From Cyanobacteria bacterium M_surface_10_m1_298 (GTDB taxonomy: Bacteria; Cyanobacteriota; Cyanobacteriia; PCC-6307; Cyanobiaceae): DNA of 64,000 nucleotides. Every line of letters starts with the position of its first letter. Positions within the stretch are counted from its first letter, which is position 1. A program made the translations under genes and the position numbers. The stretch is from contig VGPT01000002.1 in assembly GCA_016882485.1 (NCBI GenBank), positions 1 to 64,000 on the forward strand, given 5' to 3'. Below are positions 21,450 through 38,962 of the stretch, piece by piece. The notes beneath the pieces are model-generated. The model was given only the letters and a program-made list of their open reading frames with translations, ran no database searches and had not been told where the DNA came from.

Positions 21450-21977
21450 GTGATGACTGTTGAGGTCAGCGCCCACCCCATGCTTGAGCTGCTGCCGCCG
21501 CTCAACGATCACAACCTGCCGTGGATGGACACCATCCATCCGATCGTTGTGCACTTCGTGATCGCGATGGCACTGATTGCCTTCGTCTTCGACGTGATCG
21601 GCGTGGTCTGGCGCAAGCCACCGTTGTTTGAGGTGAGCTTCTGGAATCTGCTGTTTGCCACGGGGGCGATCTTCGTGGCGATCATTTTTGGCCAGGTGGA
21701 GGCAGGTCTAGCCGCGCCCTACGGAGCGGCGCGCAACATCCTCGATATCCACACCACGATCGGCTGGTCGTTGGCAGGGGTGTTGTCGCTCCTCTCGGGT
21801 TGGCGCTACGTGATTCGATCACGGGACCCTGAAACGTTGCCCTTGACGTTCCTGGGGGCTGGATCGCTGGTCAGCGCCCTGATCTGCGTGCAGATCGTTC
21901 TTGGAGACAAGTTGATCTGGACCTACGGCCTGCACACCGTGAAGGTGGTGGCGGCGATGCGGGAGGGGCTGATCTGA
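21450..21977 (+). CDS. DUF2231-like membrane protein
   Basis: IHPIVVHFVIAMALIAFVFDVIG; four TM-like segments; precedes cox operon. Confidence 0.8.
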   Translation: MMTVEVSAHPMLELLPPLNDHNLPWMDTIHPIVVHFVIAMALIAFVFDVIGVVWRKPPLFEVSFWNLLFATGAIFVAIIFGQVEAGLAAPYGAARNILDIHTTIGWSLAGVLSLLSGWRYVIRSRDPETLPLTFLGAGSLVSALICVQIVLGDKLIWTYGLHTVKVVAAMREGLI

Positions 21978-22606
21978 TGCTCTTCGCTCTCGCCTACTCC
22001 CCCGAGCAGTCGCCGATCGATCAGATCGCCTCCGAACTCGGAGCCAACGGGCTGCCTTACAGCCTGCCGATCCACCCGAATCTGGTGCACCTCACCATCG
22101 GCTTGTTTGTGATTGCCATCGCCTTCGATCTGGTGGGTGCTTTCTATCCTTTGGAGAAGCGGGTGTTTCGCTTTCTCGCTCTGCCGATCACCCGTGGTGG
22201 TTTCCACGATGTGGGTTGGTACAACCTGTTGGCGTGCTGCCTGGTGACCTTCTTCACGGTCGCTGCTGGCTTCTACGAAATGCTCACGGCTGTGCCATTG
22301 CCCGGCGTGAAGAGCACCTTCGGCTTAGGCGGCATGACCACGATGCTCTGGCATGGCGTGGGCGGGGTGCTGGTGCTGGCGGTGATCGTGGGAATGACCG
22401 TTTGGCGCGGGTTCCAGCGCTATGCCTGGCGCCGTGACATGGGCCGTCAGGTGCAGTGGCTCTACCTCGCCGTTGGCGTTGTGATGTACGCCGTGATCGG
22501 CCTGCACGGCACCCTCGGCGCTCAGATGGCCGCTGAATTCGGTATTCACATCGCCGCCGATCAGCTTCTGCAGGCCGGCGCTGATCTCCACACCGCGTTG
22601 CCATGA
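21977..22606 (+). CDS. DUF2231-like membrane protein (paralogue)
   Basis: LPIHPNLVHLTIGLFVIAIAFDLVGAFYPL. Confidence 0.8.
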   Translation: MLFALAYSPEQSPIDQIASELGANGLPYSLPIHPNLVHLTIGLFVIAIAFDLVGAFYPLEKRVFRFLALPITRGGFHDVGWYNLLACCLVTFFTVAAGFYEMLTAVPLPGVKSTFGLGGMTTMLWHGVGGVLVLAVIVGMTVWRGFQRYAWRRDMGRQVQWLYLAVGVVMYAVIGLHGTLGAQMAAEFGIHIAADQLLQAGADLHTALP

Positions 22607-22619
22607 GGACGGTGTTGCC

Positions 22620-23558
22620 ATGACCAGCTCCTCAACGCGATCGATCAACACCACCGCCGTGGTTGGCCTCAGCTTCTGGGTCGGGTTGATGGTGCTGATC
22701 AGTCATTGGATGGGACAGCAAGCCCATCGCTGGCTGCCGGTTCAGGCCTCCACCGCTGCACCCCTGGTGGATGACCTGTTCAGCTTTGAAACCGCCATCG
22801 GCACGTTTGTGTTTCTGGGGGTGGTGTCGGTGATGGTGTGGGTGATGTTGTTCAACCGAGCCGAGAAATACGACGAAACCGATGCGATTCCGATCGAGGG
22901 CAACACCCGGCTGGAGGTGATCTGGACGGCGATTCCCTTCGTGCTGGTGATGGGGATTGCTTTCTGGACCATTCGCGCCTCCGATCAGCTCGGAACCCTC
23001 GGGCCGATGGAGCACATCCATCCCCGAAACCCGGTTGAAGAGGCGGGCGGCTATCTCGGTGACCGTTTGCCGGCGGAGCAGGTGGAGGTGATTGCCCGGC
23101 AGTGGTCGTGGGAGTTTCGCTATCCCGGCACGACCGTCTCCTCCACGGAGTTACACCTTGCAGTTGATCAGCCGGTCACCTTCCGTTTGGTCTCTGAAGA
23201 CGTTCTTCACGGCTTCTACATCCCCGCGTTTCGCGTTAAGCAGGATGTGGTTCCGGGCCGGGCGATCGATTTCAACGTGACCCCGACACGCGAAGGGGTG
23301 TATCGCCTGCGTGACTCGCAATTCAGTGGCACCTGGTTTGCCGCCAATCAAGCCGACGTGGTGGTGGAAAGCGCTGAGGAGCATCAGGAGTGGCTGCAGA
23401 AGGCCGCTCGAGCCCCTCTGCAGCCGGGCTTGAGCCTCGCGGTCTCGGAGTACGCCACCCGCCAGGCCCGTTCCAATCCCGGTTGGGCGACCGTGCCCCC
23501 GGCGCCTCCCCCTCAGGTGAACGTTCCCGGATCACCCGCTCAGCCCCACCAAGCCTGA
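22620..23558 (+). CDS. ctaC: Cytochrome c oxidase subunit II-like, lacking CuA ligands (ARTO type)
   Basis: ARQWSWEFRYPG, DVLHGFYIPAFRVKQDVVPGR; CuA region reads YRLRDSQFSGTWFAANQAD. Confidence 0.9.
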   Translation: MTSSSTRSINTTAVVGLSFWVGLMVLISHWMGQQAHRWLPVQASTAAPLVDDLFSFETAIGTFVFLGVVSVMVWVMLFNRAEKYDETDAIPIEGNTRLEVIWTAIPFVLVMGIAFWTIRASDQLGTLGPMEHIHPRNPVEEAGGYLGDRLPAEQVEVIARQWSWEFRYPGTTVSSTELHLAVDQPVTFRLVSEDVLHGFYIPAFRVKQDVVPGRAIDFNVTPTREGVYRLRDSQFSGTWFAANQADVVVESAEEHQEWLQKAARAPLQPGLSLAVSEYATRQARSNPGWATVPPAPPPQVNVPGSPAQPHQA

Positions 23559-25234
23559 TGACCATCGCCACCTTTCCGCCAGAGCCAACACCCGAACAGG
23601 GGTGGGGCCGTTACTTCGGCTTCTGCACCGATGCCAAGGTGATCGGCATTCAATACATCGTGACCGCCTTTTTCTTTTTCCTGATCGGCGGCCTGCTGGC
23701 CATGGTGATCCGCGGGGAGCTGATTACACCGGCGAGTGATCTGGTGGACCGAGCTGTTTACAACGGCATCTACACGATGCACGGAACAATTATGTTGTTC
23801 CTGTTCATTTTCCCGGTGCTCAATGGTCTCAACAATCTGTTGATTCCCACCATGATTGGAGCGCCTGATATGGCGTTCCCGCGGCTCAACGCTGTCGCGT
23901 TCTGGCTGGTGCCGATCTTCGGCTTTCTGCTGATGGCCAGCTTCTTTGTCCCGGGTGGGCCGGCCTATTCCGGTTGGTGGAGTTACCCGCCGGTGAGTAT
24001 TCAGAATCCAGTCGGCCATCTGATCAATGGCCAGGGAATGTGGATCACAGCAGTGGCTCTCTCCGGTGTTTCATCGATCATGGGGGCGATCAATTTCGTA
24101 ACCACCATCCTGCGGATGCGCGCTCCGGGGATGACCCTGTTTCGCATGCCCGTGTTCTGCTGGACGGCTCTCGCAGCCCAGAGCCTGCAGTTGATCGGCC
24201 TGCCTGCTCTCACCGGCGGGGCAATCATGCTGCTGATGGATCTCACCTTTGGCACCAGCTTTTATCGCCCGGAAGGTGGCGGTGATCCGGTCCTCTATCA
24301 ACACTTCTTCTGGTTCTACTCGCACCCGGCGGTTTACGTGATCATCCTGCCGGTGTTTGGGATTTTTTCTGAACTGTTCCCGGTTTATTCGCGTAAGCCG
24401 CTGTTTGGTTATGTCTATGTCGCTCTGGCCTCCTTCATCATTGTTGGGCTCGGCTTGATTGTCTGGGTGCACCACATGTTCCCCAGTGGTGTGGCCCAGT
24501 GGATGCGCAACCTGTTTATGGTTACCACCATGCTGATTGCAGTGCCCACCGGCGTGAAGGTGTTTGCCTGGCTGGGCACGCTTTGGGGCGGCAAGTTGCG
24601 GCTCACAACGCCGATGCTCTTTTGTCTTGGCGGCTTGTTCAACTTTGTGTTCGCCGGCATCACCGGGATCATGTTGGCCACCGTTCCGGTGGACATTCAT
24701 GTGTCCAATACCTATTTCGTGGTGGGTCACTTCCACTACGTGATCTATGGCGCTGCGGTGATGGGCATCTTTGCCGCCATCTACCACTGGTTCCCCAAAT
24801 TCATCGGCCGTATGCCCTACGAAGGGCTCGGCAAGCTGCACTTTCTGCTCACCTTTATCGGGGCGAACCTCAACTTCCTGCCGATGCACCCCCTGGGTCT
24901 GACGGGGATGCCCAGGCGCGTGTCCAGCTATGACCCCGAATTCACCTTCTGGAACGTGGTGGCCAGCCTCGGTGCCTTCCTGCTGGGGGTGTCGATCATT
25001 CCGTTTCTACTCAACATGTTGAGCGCCTGGATTCGAGGCCCGAAGGCCACCCACAACCCTTGGAATGCCATCGGCCTGGAATGGCTGTTGCCTTCCCCTC
25101 CTCCGGAGGACAACTTTGGTGAGGAGGTGCCCACGGTGATCAGTCGCCCCTACGGCTACGGATCAGGCCAGCCCCTGGTGGAACACCAGGACGAGATCGA
25201 ACGCAGGCTTGCACTGCAGGAGGCCGCCGCATGA
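23558..25234 (+). CDS. ctaD: Heme-copper oxidase subunit I (A2-like)
   Basis: FFWFYSHPAVYVIILPVFGI, TYFVVGHFHYV, MHGTIMLFLFIFPVLNG; start ATG overlaps upstream stop. Confidence 0.95.
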   Translation: MTIATFPPEPTPEQGWGRYFGFCTDAKVIGIQYIVTAFFFFLIGGLLAMVIRGELITPASDLVDRAVYNGIYTMHGTIMLFLFIFPVLNGLNNLLIPTMIGAPDMAFPRLNAVAFWLVPIFGFLLMASFFVPGGPAYSGWWSYPPVSIQNPVGHLINGQGMWITAVALSGVSSIMGAINFVTTILRMRAPGMTLFRMPVFCWTALAAQSLQLIGLPALTGGAIMLLMDLTFGTSFYRPEGGGDPVLYQHFFWFYSHPAVYVIILPVFGIFSELFPVYSRKPLFGYVYVALASFIIVGLGLIVWVHHMFPSGVAQWMRNLFMVTTMLIAVPTGVKVFAWLGTLWGGKLRLTTPMLFCLGGLFNFVFAGITGIMLATVPVDIHVSNTYFVVGHFHYVIYGAAVMGIFAAIYHWFPKFIGRMPYEGLGKLHFLLTFIGANLNFLPMHPLGLTGMPRRVSSYDPEFTFWNVVASLGAFLLGVSIIPFLLNMLSAWIRGPKATHNPWNAIGLEWLLPSPPPEDNFGEEVPTVISRPYGYGSGQPLVEHQDEIERRLALQEAAA

Positions 25235-25824
25235 CCACCACCACACTGCAACAACCTGGGGCTCCCGCTGAGCACGAGGAGCATCCGAAGCACAACCTCA
25301 CCGGGTTCATCATCTTTCTGTGCTCGGAAAGCGTGATTTTCCTGGCCTTCTTCAGTGGCTATGCCCTGTTGAAGACCTCTGCTCTCAATTGGCTCCCCAA
25401 TGGCGTTGAGGGGTTGGAGTGGCGGATGCCGTTGATCAACACCATCGTGCTGGTCTCCAGCTCCGGCACCATCGCTTTGGCGGAGCACTTCAAGAACCGC
25501 GAGAACATGGCGCTGTTCCGAGGGTTCTGGCTGATGAGCATGGCCATGGGGGCCTACTTCCTCTATGGCCAGGCGGTGGAGTGGAGCGGTTTGCAGTTCG
25601 GTTTCACCTCGGGAACCTTTGGCGGCACCTTCTATCTGCTCACCGGTTTCCATGGCTTGCATGTGGCCACCGGCATCCTGTTGATGGGGCTGATGCTGAT
25701 CAAATCCTTCATCCCCGGCAATTACAAAGGCGGCGAACAGGGTGTGCAGGCCACCTCACTGTTCTGGCATTTTGTGGATGTGATCTGGATCATCCTCTTT
25801 CTGCTGATCTACGTGTGGCAATAG
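25231..25824 (+). CDS. ctaE: Heme-copper oxidase subunit III
   Basis: GFIIFLCSESVIFLAFFSGYALL, LLTGFHGLHVATGILLM, ALFWHFVDVIWIILF-like C-terminus. Confidence 0.95.
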   Translation: MTTTTLQQPGAPAEHEEHPKHNLTGFIIFLCSESVIFLAFFSGYALLKTSALNWLPNGVEGLEWRMPLINTIVLVSSSGTIALAEHFKNRENMALFRGFWLMSMAMGAYFLYGQAVEWSGLQFGFTSGTFGGTFYLLTGFHGLHVATGILLMGLMLIKSFIPGNYKGGEQGVQATSLFWHFVDVIWIILFLLIYVWQ

Positions 25825-25834
25825 GAGGTTCACC

Positions 25835-27349
25835 ATGATCATTGATGACATCCATTACGACGTGATTGTGATCGGTAGCGGTGCCGCGGGGGGCACGCTT
25901 GCCGGTCAGCTCTCACGCTCCGGCAAGCGTGTGCTGCTGCTCGAGCGCGGTGGCGCGATGCCGTTGGCTGATCAGAACGTGGCCGATGTGGATCTGTTCC
26001 GAAAGGATCGCTACCACCCCGGAGAGCAATGGTTCGGCACGGATGGCGATCCCTTCTCTCCGCAAACCATCTATGCGCTCGGAGGCAACACCAAGATCTG
26101 GGGTGGCGTGCTCGAGCGGATGCGCGAGAAGGAGTTTGCAGGTGTTCAGCTTCAGCAAGGGGCCGCCCCGTCGTGGGAGCTGAGTTACGACCAGTTCGCT
26201 CCCTTCTACGACCGCGCTGAGCAGCTCTACCGGGTGCACGGTGAACAGGGTGTCGATCCCACTGAGCCCGCGCGTCAGTCCGGCTTTCCCTATGGGCCGA
26301 AGCCGATTGAACCCTTCCTGCAGGAACTGCGCTTGTCGCTGCAGCGGCAGGGCGTTCATCCTTACCACTTGCCTCAGAGCTGGTCGGAGTCAGCCCTCGA
26401 TCCCACGGGCGATGCCGAACTGTTTGGTGTCGATCCGGCCCGCGCCCAGGCCACGGTGCAGGTGCGTGAACGGGCCCGCGTCTGCCGACTGCACGTCAAC
26501 CCGTCGGGCACCGAAGTGCGTGGGGTTGAGGCGGAGATCGACGGGCAATCCTGGTTGTTCGCCGGCCATGTGGTGGTCTTGGCCGCTGGGGCGATCAATA
26601 GCGCCGAGATCCTGTTGCGATCAGCCACCGAGCATCACAGCCGCGGCTTGGCCAATGGATCCGATCAGGTGGGCCGCAACCTGATGAAGCCGCAGCTCAC
26701 CTCAATCATTCAACTGGCTGCTGAACCCAGCTCCGGGCGCTATGGACGCAGTCTCGGCGTCAACGACTACTACTGGGGTGATCAGAACGTGAGCTTCCCG
26801 CTGGGTTCGATTGCGACGGGTGGTGGCGTGCTGCAGGACGCCTTGTTTGCGGAATCACCACCGGTGCTGTCGCTTGTGACCAAGTTGATGCCGAATTTCG
26901 GTCTCGAGCAACTGGCGGCGCGTTCGGTGGTCTGGTGGGCGATGAGCGCTGTTCTCCCCGATCCCCACAACCGGGTGACCCTGCGGGGCAATCATCTTCA
27001 GATCCACTACCTCCCCAACAACCGGGAGGCCCATGACCGCCTTGTGTATCGCTGGATCGACACGCTCAAGTTGGTGGAAAGTGATCCCGAGTGCCATGTG
27101 GTCAAGCCGGCGCCCACCCATCCCCGCGGTGAAGCTCCGCTCACCGTGATGGGAAGTGTCTGCGGCACTTGCCGCATGGGATCGAACCCCGCCACCTCTG
27201 TGGTGGATCTCAACGGCCGCTCCCACGAGCTCACCAACCTCTACATCGCCGATGCCAGCGTGTTCCCCAGCTGCCCGGGCATTGGCATTGGCCTCACGGT
27301 GATCGCCAATGCGTTGCGCGTGGGCGATCATGTGCTGCAAGCCCTATGA
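25835..27349 (+). CDS. GMC-family FAD oxidoreductase, without the Cys cluster
   Basis: [42 protein letters not shown] and C-terminal GMC signature SVFPSCPGIGIGLTVIANALRVGDHV. Confidence 0.9.
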   Translation: MIIDDIHYDVIVIGSGAAGGTLAGQLSRSGKRVLLLERGGAMPLADQNVADVDLFRKDRYHPGEQWFGTDGDPFSPQTIYALGGNTKIWGGVLERMREKEFAGVQLQQGAAPSWELSYDQFAPFYDRAEQLYRVHGEQGVDPTEPARQSGFPYGPKPIEPFLQELRLSLQRQGVHPYHLPQSWSESALDPTGDAELFGVDPARAQATVQVRERARVCRLHVNPSGTEVRGVEAEIDGQSWLFAGHVVVLAAGAINSAEILLRSATEHHSRGLANGSDQVGRNLMKPQLTSIIQLAAEPSSGRYGRSLGVNDYYWGDQNVSFPLGSIATGGGVLQDALFAESPPVLSLVTKLMPNFGLEQLAARSVVWWAMSAVLPDPHNRVTLRGNHLQIHYLPNNREAHDRLVYRWIDTLKLVESDPECHVVKPAPTHPRGEAPLTVMGSVCGTCRMGSNPATSVVDLNGRSHELTNLYIADASVFPSCPGIGIGLTVIANALRVGDHVLQAL

Positions 27350-30036
27350 GCACTCCCCGCGGCTCATCCCCAGAAGGATCCGAACTGCGCCGGATGGCCG
27401 AGCGTGATCGCGAAGGCATTCGTTGGGATCTTTGGGGTAGCTATTTGCCGGAGCGTCAGTGGGGCACGGTCCGTGAGGACTATTCCGCTGATGGCAATGC
27501 CTGGAACTCCTTTCCCCACGACCATGCCCGCTCGCGGGTCTATCGCTGGGGTGAGGACGGTCTGCTGGGCATTTGCGATAACCAGTGCCGGCTCTGTTTC
27601 TCCGTGGCGCTCTGGAACGGTGAAGACCCGATCCTGAAGGAGCGCCCCTTCGGCCTTGCCAACGAAGAGGGCAACCACGGCGAAGACATCAAGGATTACT
27701 ACTTCCACATCGCCAATACCCCCACCCACAGCTTCATGCGTGGGCTTTACAAGTATCCGCAGCAGCGTTTTCCCTACGAGCAACTGCTGGAGGAGAACCG
27801 GCGCCGGGGCCGTGATGAGCCCGAATATGAGTTGGTTGACACCGGCATCTTTGATCAGAGCCGCTACTTCGACGTGTTCATCGAATACGCCAAAGCTGGC
27901 CCCGATGACATCGCCATTCGCATCCGCGCCATCAACCGCGGCCCTGATCCGGCACCCCTCACCCTGCTGCCCACCCTCTGGTTACGCAACACCTGGAGCT
28001 GGGGCTATCCCGATGAGCAGGAACATCCGATGCAGCTCGATGGGGATGTCGTGCAGGCCAGTGTCGGTGGCGGGGTTGGCCGCTACCAGTTGATCTGTCA
28101 GGAGCAGGGCGATTGGCTGTTCACCGACAACGAGACCAACACGCAGCGTCTCTTCCAGGAGCCCAATCAGCGTTCCTTCCAAAAGGATGGATTTCACCGT
28201 TACCTGATCAACGGCGAGCAGTCGGCGATTAATCCCGACAAGCGCGGCACCAAGGTTGCCCGACATCTGCAGCGCACGCTGCAACCCGGTGAGGAGTGGC
28301 AGGTGGATCTGCGTCTCAGCGGCCCTGCCAGTTCCTCTGAGGCCCTGGCCTCAAGCGATGCCGTGGATCTGCTGTTCCGCATGCGTGAACAGGAATGGCG
28401 TGAGTTTTTTGAGAGTCGTGTTCCCAACCTCAATGAAGAAGATCGTCTGATTCACAGCAGCGCTGCTGCGGGCCTGCTGTGGTGCAAGAAGTACTACGGC
28501 TGGAGTGTTTTGCGTTGGCTTGATGGTGATCCCACCTCTCCGATCCCGCCCGCTCAGCGTTGGAAGACCCAGAACACCTCCTGGCAGCGGCTGCATGCCC
28601 ACGATGTGATCTCGATGCCGGATGCATGGGAATACCCCTACTTCTGCCAGTGGGATCTGATGTTCCACGCGGTGGCCTTCGCTGTGTTTGATCCCGCCAT
28701 GGCGAAACAGCAGTGCATGTTGTTGCGCTCGCCGCATTACACAGCCCCCAATGCCCAGACCCCGGCTTATGAATGGGCGCTCTCGGATCCCAACCCGCCG
28801 ATCGGAGCCTGGGCGGCGATGCGCGTTTTCCAGATTGAGCGCAAGAGCACCGAAGAGCCCGATCTTGGCTTCCTTCGGGCTGCCTTACGCAAGCTGATCC
28901 TGGAATACGGCTGGTGGGCGAACCGCAACGACCGCTCCGGCGATAATGTGTTTGAGGGTGGTTTCCTCGGCCTCGACAACATTGCGGTGTTTGATCGTCG
29001 CTATCCCCTCGCCGATGGCAGTCGCATCCAGCAGTGTGATGGCACCGCCTGGATGGCGTCTCTCAGTTTGAATTTGCTCAACATCAGCGTGGAGCTCAGT
29101 CGCGAAGAGCCTGAATATGCCGATATCTGCGAGCGATTTGTTTATGACTTCGTCCAGCTTGCTCTCACCATCAACCGCTCCGGTAGTCGCGGTTATTTAA
29201 ACTGGGATAAGGAGGATGGCTTCTATTATGATGTAATTAAGCGTGTTGATGGCAGCACTGATTATCTCCGCACTCGCTCGGTCTCGGGTTTGGTGCCATT
29301 GCTGGCGGTGGCAAGCTTTGACGTGGATACGGTGAAGCGTCTTCCCGTGTTGGACGTCACCAGAAGCCTCCAATGGTTCCTTCACGAACGCTCCAATCCC
29401 AGCTGGATGCTCGAGAATCTTGGCCAGTGGCGCAACGACAGGCTGCTGTTTGCTTTGGTGCCGGAGGATCGCCTGCGCCGCATCTGTGAGCGGCTGTTCG
29501 ATGAGGAGGAGTTTCTCTCCCCCTACGGCATCCGAGCCCTATCCAAGGTGTATGCCGATCACCCTTACACCTTCACCGAAGGCAGCGACTCTCAGACCCT
29601 GACCTACAGCCCCGCGGATAGTCCGGTGGCGATGTTTGGTGGTAACTCCAACTGGCGCGGGCCTGTTTGGATGCCGATCAACTTCCTGTTGATTGAGGCC
29701 TTGCAGAAATTTGGCGACTATTACGGCGATGCGTTCAAGGTGGAGTTCCCCACCCGTTCCGGCAACTGGATCAATCTTTGGGAGGCCTCACTCCTGTTGG
29801 AACATCGCCTGGTGAATCTGTTCCGACGCGGCTCCGATGGCAGGCGGCCCTTCAATGGTGCGGTCGATTTATTCCAGAACGACCCCCACTGGCGGGATCT
29901 GATCCTGTTCAACGAGTATTTCCACGGCGATCACGGCAGCGGTGTTGGTGCCAGCCATCAAACGGGATGGACGGCGATGGTCTGCAAATTGATCAATCAG
30001 CTCAGCCGTTATCCGAGCTCCGCCACAGGCTCGTGA
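27346..30036 (+). CDS. GH63-like glucosidase (mannosyl-oligosaccharide glucosidase / glucosylglycerate hydrolase-like)
   Basis: ERQWGTVREDYSADGNAWNSFPHDHARSRVYRWGEDGLLGI..., ALSDPNPPIGAWA, NSNWRGPVWMPINFLLIEAL. Confidence 0.8.
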   Translation: MSTPRGSSPEGSELRRMAERDREGIRWDLWGSYLPERQWGTVREDYSADGNAWNSFPHDHARSRVYRWGEDGLLGICDNQCRLCFSVALWNGEDPILKERPFGLANEEGNHGEDIKDYYFHIANTPTHSFMRGLYKYPQQRFPYEQLLEENRRRGRDEPEYELVDTGIFDQSRYFDVFIEYAKAGPDDIAIRIRAINRGPDPAPLTLLPTLWLRNTWSWGYPDEQEHPMQLDGDVVQASVGGGVGRYQLICQEQGDWLFTDNETNTQRLFQEPNQRSFQKDGFHRYLINGEQSAINPDKRGTKVARHLQRTLQPGEEWQVDLRLSGPASSSEALASSDAVDLLFRMREQEWREFFESRVPNLNEEDRLIHSSAAAGLLWCKKYYGWSVLRWLDGDPTSPIPPAQRWKTQNTSWQRLHAHDVISMPDAWEYPYFCQWDLMFHAVAFAVFDPAMAKQQCMLLRSPHYTAPNAQTPAYEWALSDPNPPIGAWAAMRVFQIERKSTEEPDLGFLRAALRKLILEYGWWANRNDRSGDNVFEGGFLGLDNIAVFDRRYPLADGSRIQQCDGTAWMASLSLNLLNISVELSREEPEYADICERFVYDFVQLALTINRSGSRGYLNWDKEDGFYYDVIKRVDGSTDYLRTRSVSGLVPLLAVASFDVDTVKRLPVLDVTRSLQWFLHERSNPSWMLENLGQWRNDRLLFALVPEDRLRRICERLFDEEEFLSPYGIRALSKVYADHPYTFTEGSDSQTLTYSPADSPVAMFGGNSNWRGPVWMPINFLLIEALQKFGDYYGDAFKVEFPTRSGNWINLWEASLLLEHRLVNLFRRGSDGRRPFNGAVDLFQNDPHWRDLILFNEYFHGDHGSGVGASHQTGWTAMVCKLINQLSRYPSSATGS

Positions 30037-30093
30037 CAAAGCAAAGCCAGAGTCAGCATGCGTTTCTAGCTTGCGGGTAGTGATCACGATGCT

Positions 30094-31692
30094 GTGGATC
30101 TGCTCCAGTCGCTCGGTCAACTGCAGAAGCCGGAGACCAGTCACTTTGATCTGATCATCATTGGCAGCGGTGCCGGTGGTGGCACCCTGGCCAGGGTGTT
30201 GGCGCCCACTGGTCTGCGGATCCTGATCCTTGAGCGCGGTGACTGGTTGCCCCAAGAACCGCAGAACTGGGATGCCGATGAGGTGTTTCAGAAAGGCCGC
30301 TACCTCAGCAAAGACATCTGGTACGACGGCAAGGGCAATCCTTTCCAGCCGGGAACCCACTACTTCGTGGGAGGGGCCACGAAGATGTATGGCGCCCATC
30401 ACTTCCGGCTGCGTCAGCGCGATTTTGAGGCGCTTGAGCACCACGACGGCATCTCACCGGCCTGGCCCCTGCGTTACAGCGATTTCGAGCCCTGGTATCA
30501 GCAGGCCGAGGCGATGTACCACGTGCACGGATTGCGCGGTGAGGATCCCACTGATCCCCCCAGCTCCGCTGCATATCCCCATCCGCCGATCTCCCACGAG
30601 CCGCGCATTCAGAAGTTGGCGGATGATCTGCGCAGTGCCGGTTTGCATCCCTTCCATGCCCCCAGTGGAGTGATGCTCGATGAGACCAACATGCCCTACA
30701 GCCGTTGCCGGCGTTGCAACAACTGTGATGGCTTCCCCTGTCTGGTGCACGCCAAAGGGGATGCGGAAGTGTGCGGGGTGCGGCCTGCGCTGGCGGCCAG
30801 CGCCAATGTGTCGTTGCTGACCCGCGCTGAGGTGAAGCGCTTAGTCACGGATGCGGCTGGCACCACGGTCACCGGTGTGGAGCTGGTGCGCGATGGCGAA
30901 GAGCTGCGCTATTCAGCCGATCTCGTGGTGGTGAGCTGTGGCGCCGCCAACACCGCCCGCCTGCTGTTGATGTCAGCCAACGACAAGCATCCCCGCGGCT
31001 TGGCCAATGGCTCCGATCAGGTGGGCCGCAACTACATGTTCCACAACAGCAAGGCGGCGGTGGCGCTCTCCCACGAGCCCAACCCCACCATCTTCCAGAA
31101 AACGATCTCGATCAACGATTGGTATTTCGGCGATTCCGATTACGACTACCCCATGGGCAACATCCAGATGACGGGCAAAACCCGTGGGGCGATCCTGAAG
31201 GGCTATGCGCCGCTGGAAACCTTCCTGATGCCCAACTGGGGCATGGATGAGATCGCCGCCCATGCGCTTGATTTCTGGCTCACCACCGAAGATCTGCCCG
31301 ACCCCAACAACCGCGTCACCATCGATGCGGCCGGTCATGTTCATCTCAACTACACGGTGAACAACCAAACCTCCGCCAACCGGCTCTGGGGTCGACTGCA
31401 GGGGATGCTCGACAAGCTCTATCTGAAGAAGCACCTGGTGGAGCGCCAGATCTATGTGAAAAACCCGATGGGTCTTTCAGCCGTTGGCCACCAGGCGGGC
31501 ACCTGCCGCTTCGGCACCGACCCCGCCACCTCGGTGCTCGATGTGAACTGCAAAGCTCACGAGCTCGACAACCTCTATGTGGTGGATACGAGCTTCTTCC
31601 CCAGCATCGGCGCGGTGAATCCTTCGCTGACCGCCATCGCCAATGCGATTCGCGTGGGCCATCACCTCAAAGAGCGGCTGGCCGTCTCCTGA
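30094..31692 (+). CDS. GMC-family FAD oxidoreductase with CxxCxxCxxxxC cluster
   Basis: DLIIIGSGAGGGTLARVLAPTGLRILILERGD; YSRCRRCNNCDGFPCLVHAKGDAE; GTCRFGTDPATSVLD. Confidence 0.9.
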   Translation: MDLLQSLGQLQKPETSHFDLIIIGSGAGGGTLARVLAPTGLRILILERGDWLPQEPQNWDADEVFQKGRYLSKDIWYDGKGNPFQPGTHYFVGGATKMYGAHHFRLRQRDFEALEHHDGISPAWPLRYSDFEPWYQQAEAMYHVHGLRGEDPTDPPSSAAYPHPPISHEPRIQKLADDLRSAGLHPFHAPSGVMLDETNMPYSRCRRCNNCDGFPCLVHAKGDAEVCGVRPALAASANVSLLTRAEVKRLVTDAAGTTVTGVELVRDGEELRYSADLVVVSCGAANTARLLLMSANDKHPRGLANGSDQVGRNYMFHNSKAAVALSHEPNPTIFQKTISINDWYFGDSDYDYPMGNIQMTGKTRGAILKGYAPLETFLMPNWGMDEIAAHALDFWLTTEDLPDPNNRVTIDAAGHVHLNYTVNNQTSANRLWGRLQGMLDKLYLKKHLVERQIYVKNPMGLSAVGHQAGTCRFGTDPATSVLDVNCKAHELDNLYVVDTSFFPSIGAVNPSLTAIANAIRVGHHLKERLAVS

Positions 31693-31717
31693 TGGAGTGG
31701 GCCCTGCTGGGGATCCC

Positions 31718-32227
31718 TCAGACCCCCAGCCAGATGCGCAGCAGATCCTCAATCAGCAGCGTGTCGAGGGAGAGCATTCCACCGCCGCAGAAGATCAGCA
31801 CCAAGCACATCACCACATACATCGCCGCTTTTTCCCAGCTGGGGGGTTCACCAACGCCCATCGGGCCGGCGTAGTCGCCCTCAGGGATCAGATAGGGGTC
31901 CGCGGCGATAAAGGGGAAACCACCCTTGATTTCCAGCACCATCGCGTAGGCCATCGACACGAGGATCGCGAACGACGCCAGGGGGGTGAGGAAGCCCACG
32001 ATCAGGGCAATGCCACCGGCCCACATCGAGCCGGCCGAGAGGAAACACAGCCAGGCGGGCGTCTTCAGCATCTGCGCCCAGGTCTGCAGGTTGCGCAGCT
32101 TCGGCCAGCCGTGGCGGATGAAGCAGATGCCCATGAACACCCGCAGGCTGAAGAGGGCCGCTTGGGCCAGGGGCGATGGTGCCGTCGGCACCACCAGCTC
32201 CACCAGGGCGATGTCCATGGAAATCAA
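31718..32227 (-). CDS. DoxX-family membrane protein
   Basis: SLRVFMGICFIRHGWPKLRNLQ, GIALIVGFLTPLASFAILVSMAYAM. Confidence 0.85.
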   Translation of the reverse strand: MISMDIALVELVVPTAPSPLAQAALFSLRVFMGICFIRHGWPKLRNLQTWAQMLKTPAWLCFLSAGSMWAGGIALIVGFLTPLASFAILVSMAYAMVLEIKGGFPFIAADPYLIPEGDYAGPMGVGEPPSWEKAAMYVVMCLVLIFCGGGMLSLDTLLIEDLLRIWLGV

Positions 32228-32274
32228 CCGTCTGCTCGCAAACTAGACAGTGCGGGCGCTGCTGGCTGTGTTGC

Positions 32275-33252
32275 TTAACGCGTGATCAGCTGGAGCTGAT
32301 GTCCGTCGGGATCACGCACCTGCAGAGCGCGCCGGAAGCCGAGGCGCGTCGCCTGGTTGGGTTCCAGATCCAGCACACCATCGCTGACGCAGGAGCCGCC
32401 CGCCGCGTCGACGTTTGCAGCGATCGCCTCAAGATCGGAGAGCTCCAGGCGCACCTGCCAATGGGCCAGGTCTGCTGCGCTCTGGTCGGCCGGCAGGAGC
32501 CTGCCGCCTGAAGGGCTCTGGTAGTTGAGACATTCAATCCCAGGGCCCTCCGGGCAGCGGTGAGACGTGATCCGCACGCGGGTCTCCTCAAGCCCATCGA
32601 GTCCGTCTTGCTCCGGCCCACTGTTGACCCCATCGCCACCGAGCCGTAATCCGAGCAAACCCTCATAGAAGCGAGCGCTGCGCTCGGTGTCGGCGTTGCC
32701 GATGGCGCTGTGGTCGATGCCGAGACAGGGGCTGTCGCTGCCTGTTTGATGCCAGCGGGGCTCCCCTTTGTCCGCTGGGAATTGCAGGAGCTCCAGGCAA
32801 TGCCCTTCTGGGTCGTGACACTTGAACGCCTGAATGCCTGCAGCGGCAGTGTTCCAGCTCGGCAGAGTCTGCGGGGCCGAGGAGATCGTTGTGATCTCTC
32901 CTCGAGCGATCAGGGTCTGGATCGGTGCGGCGGCCTGCTTCAGGTCGGAGACGACGATGCAGATGTGTTGAAACCAGAGGTCGGTGCTTCTTGAATCCGT
33001 CGGGATGCTGCGGCCTGGGCGGATGCCCGGTCCGAGGTTGACCACCTGCAACAGCTCCAGCTGCTCGGAGCCCAACGCCAATCGGATCAGCTTGAGCTGG
33101 CTGCCGTTGAGACGGAGCAGGGCGGCATAGGCACCGCCATCAATCTCGATGCACTCGCGCCGTTCAAAGCCCAGATGGCTCTCCAAGAAGTTGGCGATGG
33201 CTTCGGCATTGCAGCAGGTAAAGCCAAAGCTATGGATGTGAGGAAGGCTCAT
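32275..33252 (-). CDS. Tandem VOC-superfamily (glyoxalase/dioxygenase-like) protein
   Basis: Two HxxxxxxNxxxxxxFY-type domains; HDPEGHCLELLQF and RDPDGHQLQLITR. Confidence 0.85.
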   Translation of the reverse strand: MSLPHIHSFGFTCCNAEAIANFLESHLGFERRECIEIDGGAYAALLRLNGSQLKLIRLALGSEQLELLQVVNLGPGIRPGRSIPTDSRSTDLWFQHICIVVSDLKQAAAPIQTLIARGEITTISSAPQTLPSWNTAAAGIQAFKCHDPEGHCLELLQFPADKGEPRWHQTGSDSPCLGIDHSAIGNADTERSARFYEGLLGLRLGGDGVNSGPEQDGLDGLEETRVRITSHRCPEGPGIECLNYQSPSGGRLLPADQSAADLAHWQVRLELSDLEAIAANVDAAGGSCVSDGVLDLEPNQATRLGFRRALQVRDPDGHQLQLITR

Positions 33253-33255
33253 GGG

Positions 33256-34167
33256 TTAGGCCGCTCCGCGGGTATTGGTGAAGAGGGAGTAAAGGGAGGT
33301 GGAGGCGCAGATGAACAGGCGACTGTTGAAGCGGTCCCCGAAACAGAGGTTCGAGACCCGCTGGGGCACGCGGACTTTCCCCAGCAGGGTTCCATCGGCC
33401 GCGATGACGTGCACACCGTCATCGGCGCTGCACCAGAGGTTTCCTTGTTCATCCACCCGAAAGCCATCGGCCCAGCCCGCACTGATCTTGTGGAAGATCT
33501 CCCCACCGCTGAGGGCTCTCCCATCGGCGGTGACGCTGAAGCGGCGGATGTATTGGCGCGGTTCGCCGCTGCCGGCAGATCCCGTCTCCGACACATAGAG
33601 GAGTTGTTCATCAGGGGAGAAGGCGAGTCCGTTGGGGCCATCGAAATCCCTGACCACCGCCGTGATCGCTGCCGTGTCTGGATCCAATCGATACACGGCG
33701 GGCGACTGTTCGGAGACTTGGCGCCCCCCCTCGTAGTCGCTCAATAATCCATAGAGGGGATCGCTGAACCAGATCGATCCGTCTCGTTTCACCACCACAT
33801 CGTTGGGGGCATTGAGACGCTTCCCGTCTGCTTGATCCACCAGGGTGGTGACGCTGCCGTCGTGATTCAGTCGCGTCAGGCAGCGGCTGCTGTGGTGGCA
33901 CTGAATCAGCCGGCCTTGGCGATCGCGGGCCTGCCCATTGGCATAGGCCGATGGCTCCAGAAAGGTGCTGACCCCGTGTTGTTCGCTCCAGCGCAGGGTG
34001 CGGTTGTTGGGGATGTCGTTGAACAGCAGGCAACGCTGATCGCCAAACCACACCGGACCCTCGAGCCAGCGGAAGCCAGTGGCGAGCAATTCCAGTCCAG
34101 CGTTGAAGAGCACCAGCGCGTCAAAGCGCGGATCGTGGCTTTCGGTGCAGGCCGAGGGATGGTGCAT
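33256..34167 (-). CDS. SMP-30/gluconolactonase-like protein
   Basis: WLEGPVWFGDQRCLLFNDIPNNRTLRW, RLNAPNDVVVKRDGSIWFSDP, GPNGLAFSPDEQLLYVS, WADGFRVDEQGNLWCS. Confidence 0.93.
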   Translation of the reverse strand: MHHPSACTESHDPRFDALVLFNAGLELLATGFRWLEGPVWFGDQRCLLFNDIPNNRTLRWSEQHGVSTFLEPSAYANGQARDRQGRLIQCHHSSRCLTRLNHDGSVTTLVDQADGKRLNAPNDVVVKRDGSIWFSDPLYGLLSDYEGGRQVSEQSPAVYRLDPDTAAITAVVRDFDGPNGLAFSPDEQLLYVSETGSAGSGEPRQYIRRFSVTADGRALSGGEIFHKISAGWADGFRVDEQGNLWCSADDGVHVIAADGTLLGKVRVPQRVSNLCFGDRFNSRLFICASTSLYSLFTNTRGAA

Positions 34168-34174
34168 CGATGAC

Positions 34175-34639
34175 TCAACCGGCTTGACTGAACCAACCGG
34201 GTTTGAGATTCAGCCAGCGCCCATCCCGGGGTTGGATCGCCAGCTGGATGCAGGGTTCATCCCCCAATTGTTCCGAGAGATGGCCGCTTCGGCCCTCGGC
34301 ATCGGTGCTGCAGTTCTGGTCGCCTCCAAAGGAGAACTCCCCAGGGCCCACCTCGATCCGCTGCCCGTCCATGCTCGTGATCGACCAGCGTCCCTTGAGC
34401 ACGTAAATCAATTTCGGTGCTGGATTTTCGTGCCAGCTCGCCTTCCAACCCACCGGCAGCACCACGGCTGTGGCGGTGAGGTCGTCGTCGATGACGCGAT
34501 TGAACAGCGGGGTGTTGCGCGGCCCGAGATTGACGAACTCAAAGCCGCTCAGCTCGCAGTAGGTCTGCCGGCTAATCCCCTCTTCATCACACCAGAGATG
34601 CCAGTAGCCAAGGGCTACGGATGGATCACTGTTCCCCAC
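34175..34639 (-). CDS. Cupin-domain protein
   Basis: SWHENPAPKLIYVLKGRWSITSMDGQRIEVGPGEFSFGGD. Confidence 0.8.
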   Translation of the reverse strand: MGNSDPSVALGYWHLWCDEEGISRQTYCELSGFEFVNLGPRNTPLFNRVIDDDLTATAVVLPVGWKASWHENPAPKLIYVLKGRWSITSMDGQRIEVGPGEFSFGGDQNCSTDAEGRSGHLSEQLGDEPCIQLAIQPRDGRWLNLKPGWFSQAG

Positions 34640-34748
34640 GATGGGCTTGGAACATCAGTCTCACTCAGCTTGGCCAGAGGGGCGCTTGTTGTCAGTGATG
34701 GCGGCTTGAGCGCACCATGCATACCCTGCGGTGATGTGATCAGATCCC

Positions 34749-35552
34749 ATGACCAGCAACCCCTACGCCCTGGAGACCCTCTCCAATCTGCTCAAGGGCA
34801 AGGTGATCATCGTGACCGGCGGTAACAGCGGTATCGGCAAATCAATCGTGGAGGTGGTAGCCCGCCTTGGTGCCCGCGTGGTGATCGACTATCGCTCCCA
34901 TCCGGAAGCCACCGAAGCGATCGAGCAGGAAATCGGTGACCTGGGCGGCACCTGTTTCGGTGTTCAAGCTGATGTGGGCAAGCTTGATGATCTGCAGCGC
35001 CTGGTGCAGGAAGCCGTCAATCGCTACGGACGGCTCGATGTGATGGTGAACAACGCCGGCATCGAAACCCGCACCTCGATTCTTGACACCACGCCGGATG
35101 ACTTCGACAAGGTTCTGAACGTGAACCTGCGTGGTGTGTTCTTCGCCACCCAGTACGCCGCCAAGCAGATGATCGCCCAGGGCAGCGGGGGGCGCATCAT
35201 CAACATCTCCTCGGTGCACGAGGACTGGCCCATGCCCAACAACACGCCCTACTGCGTGGCCAAAGGAGGGGTTCGGATGCTGACCCGCACCGCCGGTGTC
35301 GAACTGGCCTCGAAGGGCGTGTCGATTGTGAATGTGGGTCCCGGAGCGGTGGCCACACCGATCAACGACTCCACGATGAACAACCCGGAGCTGCTGGCCA
35401 AGCTCAATGCGGCGATCCCGATGGGGCGGATGGCTCAGCCCGACGAGATCGCCAAGGTGGTGGCCTTCCTCGCCAGCGACGCCGCCAGCTACATCACCGC
35501 CACCAGCATCTTTGCCGATGGCGGGATTATGCAAAGCAGCCCTGGCTTGTGA
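34749..35552 (+). CDS. SDR-family oxidoreductase (glucose 1-dehydrogenase-like)
   Basis: KVIIVTGGNSGIGKSIVEV, NNAGIE, INISSVHEDWPMPNNTPYCVAKGGVRMLTRT. Confidence 0.92.
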   Translation: MTSNPYALETLSNLLKGKVIIVTGGNSGIGKSIVEVVARLGARVVIDYRSHPEATEAIEQEIGDLGGTCFGVQADVGKLDDLQRLVQEAVNRYGRLDVMVNNAGIETRTSILDTTPDDFDKVLNVNLRGVFFATQYAAKQMIAQGSGGRIINISSVHEDWPMPNNTPYCVAKGGVRMLTRTAGVELASKGVSIVNVGPGAVATPINDSTMNNPELLAKLNAAIPMGRMAQPDEIAKVVAFLASDAASYITATSIFADGGIMQSSPGL

Positions 35553-36259
35553 AAATCACCCGCGCGCAGCTGGCGCGGCTGCGGAAGCGCCACTTCGGCT
35601 ACCGCCTCACCCTGGGAGTGGAGTTGGCAGTGCTCCTGCTGCTGCCTCTGGCTCAATCCGTGACCTGGTTGTTATCCGTGCTCTGGGTGGTGTTAGCGAT
35701 CGAGATGCTCGTGTTTCTCAGTCGCTATTCCGCCCTGGGCCGTCGCTCCTTGATGTACGGACTCGGGGGGCTAGCGGTGGTCTTGGAGATCATCTGGCAT
35801 CTCGCTCTGGTCTGGACACCGGCCTTGGGTAAAGCCCTCACCCTGCCCCATGTGATGGTTTGGGTTGCCTTTCTGTTGGTCACGGCGATTCGCAAGGTGA
35901 AATCCCTCGTGCGCGAGCCCTTTGTCACCTTCTCGGTGGTGTTGGGGGCAGCCTCGGGCTATCTCAGCATCGGCCTGGCCGGTGGTGTTCTCCTCACCGC
36001 TCTTTGGGTGCTACAGCCATCCGCCTATGTAGCTGCTGCGCTCCCGCCGGTTTCGCCGATGGGGGACATCACCGTTGCCGTTGCGCCTGCCCTGATGGCA
36101 GCCGCTTTTTCCTTGCTCACCACCGTTGGCACTGACGTGATGAACTCAGCCAATGTCACCGCTCAGGTGGTGTCCAACCTGATCACGATCTCCGGGCAGC
36201 TGTATGTGGCGATCCTGATCGGATTAATCCTGGGTCGCTTTCACCAACGGGTGAACTGA
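35549..36259 (+). CDS. Multi-TM membrane protein (ion-channel-like, low certainty)
   Basis: About six hydrophobic segments; late segment SLLTTVGTDVMNSANVTAQVVSNLITISGQLYVAILIGLILGR resembles a 2TM pore/S6 region. Confidence 0.5.
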   Translation: MKITRAQLARLRKRHFGYRLTLGVELAVLLLLPLAQSVTWLLSVLWVVLAIEMLVFLSRYSALGRRSLMYGLGGLAVVLEIIWHLALVWTPALGKALTLPHVMVWVAFLLVTAIRKVKSLVREPFVTFSVVLGAASGYLSIGLAGGVLLTALWVLQPSAYVAAALPPVSPMGDITVAVAPALMAAAFSLLTTVGTDVMNSANVTAQVVSNLITISGQLYVAILIGLILGRFHQRVN

Positions 36260-36279: not shown

Positions 36280-37617
36280 ATGAGCCGATCTGTTGATGTT
36301 GCCTTGTCTCTTCGCGCCCGCGATCTCCTGCGCAATCTTCTGCAGCTGTCCCTGCTCGGTCTGCTGGTGGGGGTGGCCTGCTGGCCGTTGAACCTGATCG
36401 ATCGTTGGCAAGACCGGCTGCTCTCCCTGCTGCCCGCCTTCAGTGGCCAGGCCTGGAGCCCGGCTTCTTTGGCGCTGGCCTGTTCTCCGCTGGTGGTGGT
36501 GCCGTTGTTGCTTGTGCTTCAGCGGGGAATCCTGTCCCGCGGGGTTGGATCCGGGATCCCGCAGACCATGACCAGCATCGAGCACCCGGGGCAGGCTGCG
36601 GCACTGCTGGGTTGGGTGCCCACCGTGCAGCGGGCCGTGCTCTGGAGCATGGCGAGTCTGAGTCTTCTGCCACTGGGCCGGGAGGGTCCGGTGGTGCAGT
36701 TCGGGGCCTCGGTGGCCCATGCCCTGCGCCGCCGTTTCCCCAGTTGGTTTTCTGGGTTGGGGCAGGCGGATCTGCTGGCGGTGTCAGCCGGTGCGGGATT
36801 GGCCGGCGGTTTTGACACCCCCTTGCTGGGGGTGGTGTTTGTGGCTGAGGAATTTCTCAGCAACTTTTCCGCCAGCATGCTCTGGCCCGCGATGGTGATC
36901 TGCGGGATGGCAGCCAGCTTCAGCAACCTCACAGGGCAGCCGATGTTTGCTCTGGGCACGGTTGGTGTGGAGCCGATGCAACTCATGCAGGTGTTGTGGG
37001 CACTGCCTCTGGGGCTGCTTGGCGGAGTGCTCGGTGGTGCGTTCGCCAAGATGCTGCTGGCGGGAACGAAGCGGTGTCTATGTCTGGTGCGTCGTTACCC
37101 CCTACGCCTCGGGCTGGCGATCGGAGCTCTGCTGAGTCTCTTCGCGCTGGTGAGCGGTGGGGCCAGCGGAGGTGATGGGGAACTGTTGATGGGGCACATG
37201 CTGTTCGCCTCCCCCGATGGAGCGGAGTTGCCCAGGGGGCTTGGCGTGGATCTGCTCAGACTGCTGCTGCGTGTGATGGGCCCTGTGCTCGCTCTCGCCA
37301 CGGGGATCCCAGGAGGTTTGATTGATCCCTCGTTTGCCTTTGGCGCGACGCTGGGACAGGTGGTTGCTGATCAGGTGGGGTCCACGCAGCTTTGCATCGC
37401 CCTGGGGATGGTGGCCGGCCTGGCGGGAGCCACTCAACTACCGGTGATGAGTGTGCTGTTTGGCGTGCGCGTGGCGGGCGATCAGCAATTGCTCTGCGGC
37501 CTGTTGGTGGCGAGTGTGATCGCGGCCTACGTGAGTCGCCAGATCGTGGCCAAGCCGATCTATCACGCGCTGCACGCGATCACCAGTGAGGCCGCGCCTA
37601 CGACGGAGCCTCGGTGA
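36280..37617 (+). CDS. ClC-family chloride channel/transporter
   Basis: LPLGREGPVVQFGASVAHAL (GREGP), GSGIPQ, GIPGGLIDPSFAFGATLG. Confidence 0.92.
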   Translation: MSRSVDVALSLRARDLLRNLLQLSLLGLLVGVACWPLNLIDRWQDRLLSLLPAFSGQAWSPASLALACSPLVVVPLLLVLQRGILSRGVGSGIPQTMTSIEHPGQAAALLGWVPTVQRAVLWSMASLSLLPLGREGPVVQFGASVAHALRRRFPSWFSGLGQADLLAVSAGAGLAGGFDTPLLGVVFVAEEFLSNFSASMLWPAMVICGMAASFSNLTGQPMFALGTVGVEPMQLMQVLWALPLGLLGGVLGGAFAKMLLAGTKRCLCLVRRYPLRLGLAIGALLSLFALVSGGASGGDGELLMGHMLFASPDGAELPRGLGVDLLRLLLRVMGPVLALATGIPGGLIDPSFAFGATLGQVVADQVGSTQLCIALGMVAGLAGATQLPVMSVLFGVRVAGDQQLLCGLLVASVIAAYVSRQIVAKPIYHALHAITSEAAPTTEPR

Positions 37618-38962
37618 TCACCAGTGCCGAGCGCTCGCGGGTGACGATCATCCACAGCCACTTGGTGAGCAGGGTGATCCGGTTTTCGTTGTCGGGAATG
37701 AACGCCAGGTGAGCCAATCCCCAGAGAATCCAGCCCAGGGGCCCGCTCACCTTCAGACCCCGTAGATCGGCAACCGCGAACAGAGGACCCACCACCGCCA
37801 TGCTGCCGAAGTCGGTGAACACAAAGGGCGGGTGGCTCTGGTTCTGCAGCTTGGCCAGGATGTCCTTGGCGACCCAGCCGCCCATCTGCACCGCCGGGCC
37901 AGCCATACCCGGTAGGGGCTTGCCGTTTTTGGTGTGGCTGTAGCTGCAGAGATCACCCACCACGCGGATCTCAGGGTGCCCAGCGATCGAGAAATCCGCT
38001 TCCACGGGCACGCGTCCGCCGCGATCGACTTCGCAACGCGTGCGCTCAGCCAGCAGCTTGCCCAGGGGTGAGGCCGCCACGCCGGCGGTCCAGCAGATTG
38101 TGCTGGCCTCCAGGGTGACCTCTCCGCTGCTGGTGGTGACCACCAGCTTGCTCTCTTCGATCGTTTTGACGCGCCCCCCGAGCAGCAGTTCCACGCCGGC
38201 CCGGATGAGGTGGTCGCCGGCGGCCTTGGAGAGCTGCGGATCCATCGCCCGCAGGACGCGGTCGCCTGGATCCACCAGGGTCACCTTGCAGAGGCTGGGA
38301 TCGATCTGTTTGAAATCGCGCTCGAGGGTGTGGCGCATCAGGTCATTGAGGGAGGCCGCCAGTTCGCAACCCGTGGGGCCGCCTCCCACCACCACCACGG
38401 ATTGCAGCAGGCGGCGTTTGTCGGGATCCGGTGTTTGCTCAGCCTCCTCCAGCGCATTCAGCACCCGCTTACGAATGCCGTAGGCATCTTCCAGCGACTT
38501 CATCGGCGTGGCGAACTGTGCCCATTCGTCGTGGCCGAAGTAGCTGCTGGTGGCGCCGGCTGCCACGATCAGGTGGTCGTAGCGCAGTCGACGATCGTTA
38601 AAGATCACCTCCTGGGCAGAGGGGTCAATGTCCTTCACCTCTCCCATCAGGATCTGCACATTGGGGGCCTGCCCGAGCATGATCCGCAGCGGTGAGGCCA
38701 CATCGGTCTGCGAGACCAATCCCGATGCCACCTGATACAGGAGCGGTTGGAACAGGTTGAAGTTGCGCTTGTCGATCAGGGTGACCCGAACGGTCTTGCC
38801 AGCTAGGGCATGGGCTGCCTTGAGACCGGCGAAGCCGCCACCCACGATCACCACATGGGGGGCGTCGCGGAGCAGTTCTGAGGGTGGGGTGAGCTCAAGA
38901 AAGAAGTGCTCTGGAGCCATGGACCGACCGATGCTTGCCCACAAGCTATCGGTGGTTTCCAA
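37598..38962 (-). CDS. Type 2 NAD(P)H dehydrogenase (NDH-2)
   Basis: HVVIVGGGFAGLKAAHALAGKTVRVTLIDKRNFNLFQPLLYQVA; VVVGGGPTGCELAASL. Confidence 0.95.
   Translation of the reverse strand: METTDSLWASIGRSMAPEHFFLELTPPSELLRDAPHVVIVGGGFAGLKAAHALAGKTVRVTLIDKRNFNLFQPLLYQVASGLVSQTDVASPLRIMLGQAPNVQILMGEVKDIDPSAQEVIFNDRRLRYDHLIVAAGATSSYFGHDEWAQFATPMKSLEDAYGIRKRVLNALEEAEQTPDPDKRRLLQSVVVVGGGPTGCELAASLNDLMRHTLERDFKQIDPSLCKVTLVDPGDRVLRAMDPQLSKAAGDHLIRAGVELLLGGRVKTIEESKLVVTTSSGEVTLEASTICWTAGVAASPLGKLLAERTRCEVDRGGRVPVEADFSIAGHPEIRVVGDLCSYSHTKNGKPLPGMAGPAVQMGGWVAKDILAKLQNQSHPPFVFTDFGSMAVVGPLFAVADLRGLKVSGPLGWILWGLAHLAFIPDNENRITLLTKWLWMIVTRERSALVITEAPS

Follow-up and report, generated by a model that had tools for sequence, protein, structure and literature searches.

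Many cyanobacteria possess an alternative respiratory terminal oxidase (ARTO), which has been tied to iron reduction and to heterocyst respiration and whose complete set of subunits is unsettled (PMC6616624, PMC10119275). The type-1 ARTO operon of Anabaena, also named Qox or Cox3, comprises the five genes alr2729-alr2730-coxB3-coxA3-coxC3, and the same review calls the enzyme three-subunit while adding uncertainty over further subunits (PMC6616624); in picocyanobacteria the ARTO genes are ctaC2-D2-E2 (PMC10119275). Here we analyze a locus in a stretch of 64,000 nucleotides, hereafter referred to as the window (contig VGPT01000002.1, positions 1 to 64,000), from Cyanobacteria bacterium M_surface_10_m1_298, whose draft genome measures 2.0 Mb and is 93% complete. 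A preliminary description of this DNA had read positions 21450 to 35552 as a single module in which a glycoside is hydrolyzed and its sugar oxidized by two GMC flavoproteins (GMC1 and GMC2) that feed a quinol oxidase. We find that the locus is two units rather than one pathway: an ARTO operon that ends in GMC1, which accompanies the oxidase operon across the class Cyanobacteriia, and a sugar-oxidation unit, in which GMC2 and a GH63-type glycoside hydrolase are a later addition in one family. As an explanation of the whole, we consider it rather probable that an ARTO operon closing with a non-dehydrogenase GMC1 stands next to a genus-level GH63-GMC2 sugar-oxidation unit. The genes of the first unit are as follows (FAD, flavin adenine dinucleotide).

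21450..21977, + strand: DUF2231 membrane protein a (PF09990, E 1.5e-34), equivalent of alr2729 or alr2730 in the Anabaena ARTO operon
21977..22606, + strand: DUF2231 membrane protein b (PF09990, E 1.6e-36)
22620..23558, + strand: coxB/ctaCII, subunit II without CuA, of ARTO type (PF00116, PF02790)
23558..25234, + strand: coxA/ctaDII, heme-copper oxidase subunit I (PF00115, E 2.8e-152)
25231..25824, + strand: coxC/ctaEII, subunit III (PF00510, E 1.3e-30)
25835..27349, + strand: GMC1, GMC-fold FAD protein of the ARTO-linked clade (PF05199, E 1.4e-17; PF00732)

Judged by its sequence, the run DUF2231a-DUF2231b-coxB-coxA-coxC-GMC1 is the operon of the cyanobacterial ARTO, a heme-copper quinol oxidase that lacks CuA. 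The order DUF2231-DUF2231-coxBAC matches alr2729-alr2730-coxB3A3C3, with two membrane proteins followed by a CuA-less subunit II and then subunits I and III; unlike the published Anabaena operon, the window and most sampled operon-bearing cyanobacteria carry a sixth gene, GMC1, at the end. The CoxB of the window has RDSQFSGTWFAAN in place of the CxxxC region and hence no CuA cysteines, which are also missing in every ARTO-type CoxB compared, while the other CoxB of the genome (contig C9) serves as an internal control and retains the CuA motif CAELCGPYHGGM. The label of quinol oxidase in the preliminary description is thus borne out at the level of sequence. The genome has two COX1 genes, of which the window coxA is one. 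In DUF2231a the four histidines H30, H35, H101, and H162 are invariant, as are H33, H38, H126, and H191 in DUF2231b (kept in all 75 homologues compared), and they may form a heme-b site.

A flavoprotein of the NDH-2 type recurs beside ARTO operons (loci L147, L259, L260, L273, L274, L242, and L244, and the window at 37598-38962). In several families it precedes DUF2231a in divergent orientation, and in type-2 ARTO operons without GMC1 it follows coxC.

The association of GMC1 with ARTO was surveyed in 242 Cyanobacteriia genomes, with full-length homologues taken at an identity of at least 47%. It is clear that the association is regular: 88 of 97 full-length GMC1 genes sit 2.3–5.7 kb downstream of an ARTO coxB on the same strand, several of the 9 exceptions lie on short contigs or contig edges, and in the family of the window the 9 sampled genomes with GMC1 are the same 9 that have an ARTO-type coxB. 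In a blind test, 386 genomes of the phylum were scanned for DNA encoding NNxEAHDR, a motif that occurs in 47 of them with one copy each and in none of the lineages outside the class. Twenty of these 47 loci were fetched, almost all of them in genomes not previously examined for their GMC1 locus, and all 20 stand behind DUF2231x2-(coxB)-coxA-coxC (the contig of L263 ends before coxB). GMC1 is the regular last gene of the ARTO operon in most sampled operon-bearing cyanobacteria. Absence of synteny in relatives was what would have spoken against the preliminary description, and the gene order is instead conserved across the class far above chance; synteny together with the 20 motif-scan loci behind the oxidase block rules out chance adjacency. 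We found no report of a link between GMC proteins and ARTO in the open-licence papers searched. A complete six-gene ARTO-GMC1 block also occurs in a Prochlorococcus-sized genome of 1.7 Mb (G499:C14, locus L255) from group g37, which otherwise has no GMC1 or ARTO match in the sample.

By sequence, the best solved relatives of both GMC1 and GMC2 are the FAD-glucose dehydrogenase (FAD-GDH) of Burkholderia and the fructose dehydrogenase (FDH) of Gluconobacter, and the closest folds to GMC1 are likewise FDH and FAD-GDH (9jqa/8grj). The GMC fold of GMC1 is kept along with its FAD-binding motif, in which G14, G16, G19, and E37 are invariant. Unlike the catalytic subunits of these dehydrogenases, GMC1 has no Cys cluster and carries S441 and G484 where FAD-GDH has its catalytic pair His476/Asn519; the residues mutated in the FDH entries H1147A and N1190A are 43 apart, the same spacing as the FAD-GDH pair. 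The catalytic Asn is present in 0 of 88 ARTO-linked GMC proteins and the His has been lost from 71 of the 88, whereas GMC2-type proteins keep the His in 76/76 and the Asn in 75/75 readable cases (these counts include near relatives and do not represent independent events). The Cys cluster is absent from all 81 GMC1 proteins and is kept in 7 ARTO-linked proteins from Nostocales and relatives. ARTO-linked GMC proteins form a single clade, with a support of 100 in the Shimodaira-Hasegawa-like approximate likelihood ratio test (SH-aLRT), nested within catalytic, Cys-bearing dehydrogenases and recognizable by the signature MIIDD...NNxEAHDRL, in which MIIDD is the N-terminus. Within this clade the Cys-bearing members branch at the base, which fits a history in which the Asn was lost first and the Cys cluster later. 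GMC1 has no signal peptide, and its mean column identity of 71% over 40 diverse sequences means that it is not a decaying gene.

MftG, the mycofactocin GMC dehydrogenase, is a flavoprotein of the GMC type that couples oxidation with respiration. It is the top NCBIfam match by E-value for both GMC1 and GMC2, yet its score is about 70 where the cut-off is 387, and neither MftG nor choline dehydrogenase was retained as an identity for GMC1, as the scores fall far under the cut-offs.

The loss of the catalytic Asn, in most cases of the His, and of the Cys cluster argues that GMC1, presented in the preliminary description as a sugar oxidizer, has probably ceased to be a sugar dehydrogenase and become a flavoprotein dedicated to ARTO. 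A more specific version, which we hold only tentatively, makes GMC1 the sixth, flavin-bearing component of ARTO, a former sugar dehydrogenase without catalysis that now acts as an electron-input or regulatory subunit. Several observations weigh against a dedication of GMC1 to ARTO in either form. Several lineages carry ARTO without GMC1, such as family f32 with many such operons, in which no conserved replacement gene was found behind coxC; in two type-2 ARTO operons an NDH-2-like gene occupies that place. A GMC gene is absent from the published operon list of Anabaena (PMC6616624), and 17 of the 88 ARTO-linked proteins retain the catalytic His. In addition, four genomes of the window's genus combine five oxidase genes of marine Synechococcus type with a GMC1 and sugar unit of the genus type. 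Since the oxidase block seems to have been swapped without GMC1, the latter seems exchangeable between oxidase versions, which speaks against a very tight complex.

In these four genomes (L036, L038, L039, and L041) the segment from DUF2231a to coxC has apparently been replaced as a block by the marine Synechococcus-type version. In L036 the CoxA, CoxC, and both DUF2231 proteins are 81–90% identical to that version, while its GMC1 has 84% identity to the window and 67–69% to the marine type; closeness to the marine type was measured in L036, and the other three were assigned to it because they are less identical to the window.

A less likely alternative is that GMC1 is still a dehydrogenase that works through other residues (H400 and Y405) on another substrate, so that ARTO would be coupled to a specific oxidation other than that of sugars. 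The distribution of H400, which lies in NNxEAHDRL and is found in 88/88 ARTO-linked proteins vs. 5/76 elsewhere, the presence of Y405 in 83/88, and the strong conservation of the protein all agree with this reading, although H400 could be a structural or contact site. It seems improbable that GMC1 is only a passenger, functionally unconnected to ARTO and retained through operon inertia. Such a passenger could explain both the four genomes with a replaced oxidase block and the lineages that lack GMC1, but not easily a synteny that holds down to about 47% identity over many families, the 20 of 20 blind motif loci, the coincidence of GMC1 and ARTO-type coxB in the home family, or the loss of the catalytic Asn in every ARTO-linked member.

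Downstream of GMC1 lie the genes of the second unit, given here together with the NDH-2-type gene beyond it.

27346..30036, + strand: GH63-type alpha-glucosidase-like glycoside hydrolase, cytosolic (PF22422 and PF03200 above cut-off)
30094..31692, + strand: GMC2, GMC dehydrogenase with His/Asn pair and CxxCxxCxxxxC cluster (PF00732/PF05199)
31718..32227, - strand: DoxX-family membrane protein (PF07681), syntenic in relatives
32275..33252, - strand: two-domain VOC (glyoxalase-fold) protein (PF00903), syntenic in relatives
33256..34167, - strand: predicted SMP-30/gluconolactonase-like lactonase (PF08450 (SGL), E 5.3e-44), syntenic
34175..34639, - strand: cupin (PF07883)
34749..35552, + strand: SDR dehydrogenase, glucose-1-dehydrogenase-like (PF13561; NF006493 E 1.2e-74, under the NF006493 cut-off)
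37598..38962, - strand: NDH-2-type FAD oxidoreductase (PF07992, PF22366), tied to the ARTO of the window by distance only

Every gene named in the preliminary description is present at the place and on the strand given there and has Pfam support, with domains DUF2231 (twice), COX2/COX2_TM, COX1, COX3, GMC_oxred_N/C (twice), and MGH1-like_GH with Glyco_hydro_63, followed in the distal part by DoxX, Glyoxalase (VOC), SGL (SMP-30), Cupin_2, and adh_short. Its account of gene packing and order also stands except in one detail, as it gave ATGA overlaps throughout: these 4-base overlaps occur at CoxA/CoxC and GMC1/GH63, while DUF2231/DUF2231 and CoxB/CoxA overlap by 1 base in TGATG, which places the coxA start at 23558. 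A gap of 10 bp with a GGAGG ribosome site separates CoxC from GMC1, and 57 bp separate GH63 from GMC2. The gene of an eight-transmembrane protein of unassigned family (35549-36259, GTG start) begins just ahead of the SDR stop codon, overlapping the SDR gene by 4 bases, and a ClC channel gene comes after it.

GMC2 is predicted to be a flavo-iron-sulfur dehydrogenase resembling FAD-GDH and FDH. It matches FAD-GDH with a phmmer E of 2.5e-32, is also related to FDH, and shares with both the His/Asn pair and a Cys cluster at the same place, all intact (HQ.GTCR, VNPSLT, CRRCNNCDGFPC). Unlike FAD-GDH and FDH, neither GMC1 nor GMC2 has a signal peptide or an adjoining gene for a cytochrome c or Tat-type small subunit; among the annotated neighbors of the two genes there is no Pfam family of a small subunit or multiheme cytochrome c partner. 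The GMC2 of the window's family is set apart from other cyanobacterial GMC2-type proteins, and its top identities outside the family are to Actinobacteria (L215, L222, and L225, 61–62%); the sequences suggest horizontal transfer of this GMC2.

The GH63 protein has 896 residues and no signal peptide. Its GH63 domain and fold are present, its best PDB folds are processing alpha-glucosidase I and E. coli YgjK, and D544 and E857, which do not vary among 34 homologues, presumably form the GH63 acid/base pair. While it shares the fold and C-terminal motifs of these GH63 alpha-glucosidases, it differs from both glucosidase I and YgjK in its cytosolic 896-residue form and an identity of only 12–15%. 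The glucosylglycerate hydrolases GgH and MgH are not among its top 50 PDB folds (glucosidase I, YgjK, GH94, GH116, and similar). In the 93%-complete genome no GpgS was found above the cut-off and no GgpS was found; genes of the sucrose-phosphatase type are present. Glucosylglycerate, which the preliminary description had offered as the example substrate, is thus not supported, and an identity of the GH63 protein as an MhGgH/MgH-like glucosylglycerate hydrolase was rejected in view of the missing fold match and of the lack of detected glucosylglycerate-making genes. Five loci of the window's genus (L065-L069) hold a second, diverged GH63 paralogue of about 45% identity with no ARTO or GMC neighbors.

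Together, GH63 and GMC2 with the DoxX-VOC-SMP30-cupin block and the SDR fit a putative cytosolic route in which a glycoside is hydrolyzed, the sugar oxidized, and the lactone opened. GH63-GMC2 stands directly behind GMC1 in the window's genus (Vulcanococcus) as well as in Synechococcus and Cyanobium strains related to it. Of 18 GH63 loci outside the window's family, 8 have a GMC2-type gene no more than 10 kb away, usually accompanied by an SDR or VOC gene, and these lack ARTO. In Nostoc, Scytolyngbya, and other Nostocales/Leptolyngbyaceae, the DoxX, VOC, SMP-30, cupin, SDR, and GMC2 genes are clustered in a different order, some clusters adding a debranching-type or amylase-type hydrolase, and in L185/L236, L194, and L238 the rearranged set stands beside a second ARTO-like coxBAC. 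The grouping of these sugar genes with an ARTO-type oxidase that the preliminary description had pointed out therefore recurs beyond the window's family, and since two arrangements of the same parts adjoin the same kind of oxidase, gene neighborhood offers good evidence that sugar oxidation and ARTO-type oxidases are functionally linked. In relatives, VOC and SMP-30 are separated by a stretch of about 0.7 kb that is missing from the window (L219, 17434-18127). It holds two small minus-strand open reading frames whose products, judged by eye, resemble a protein of GlcG/HbpS type and a peptide of Nif11 type.

We doubt that GMC1 and GMC2 serve a single pathway, both oxidizing GH63-released sugars (e.g., from glucosylglycerate) to feed ARTO: the conserved gene order, the two GMC proteins, and the lactonase would suit it, but the residues missing from GMC1, the absence of GpgS above the cut-off and of GgpS, and the many genomes, including marine Synechococcus-type loci, with ARTO and GMC1 and no GH63 or GMC2 nearby speak against it.

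Returning to the reading of an ARTO operon next to a sugar-oxidation unit, we infer a working in which GH63 would release an alpha-glucosyl sugar in the cytosol and GMC2 would oxidize it, passing electrons to plastoquinone, while SMP-30 would open the resulting lactone. ARTO would then re-oxidize the plastoquinol with O2, aided by the His-rich DUF2231 pair that possibly carries heme b, and GMC1 would assist ARTO as an accessory protein, as a sensor, or by providing an alternative electron input.

If GMC1 is indeed the sixth component, it would give ARTO a direct electron entry from the cytosol, possibly via heme-binding DUF2231 proteins, and would help to explain the difficulty in settling the electron donor of this oxidase. 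With its GMC fold kept and its catalytic residues lost, GMC1 is a conserved candidate for the missing ARTO component that can be tested directly, and it may illustrate how a metabolic dehydrogenase is recruited to a terminal oxidase.

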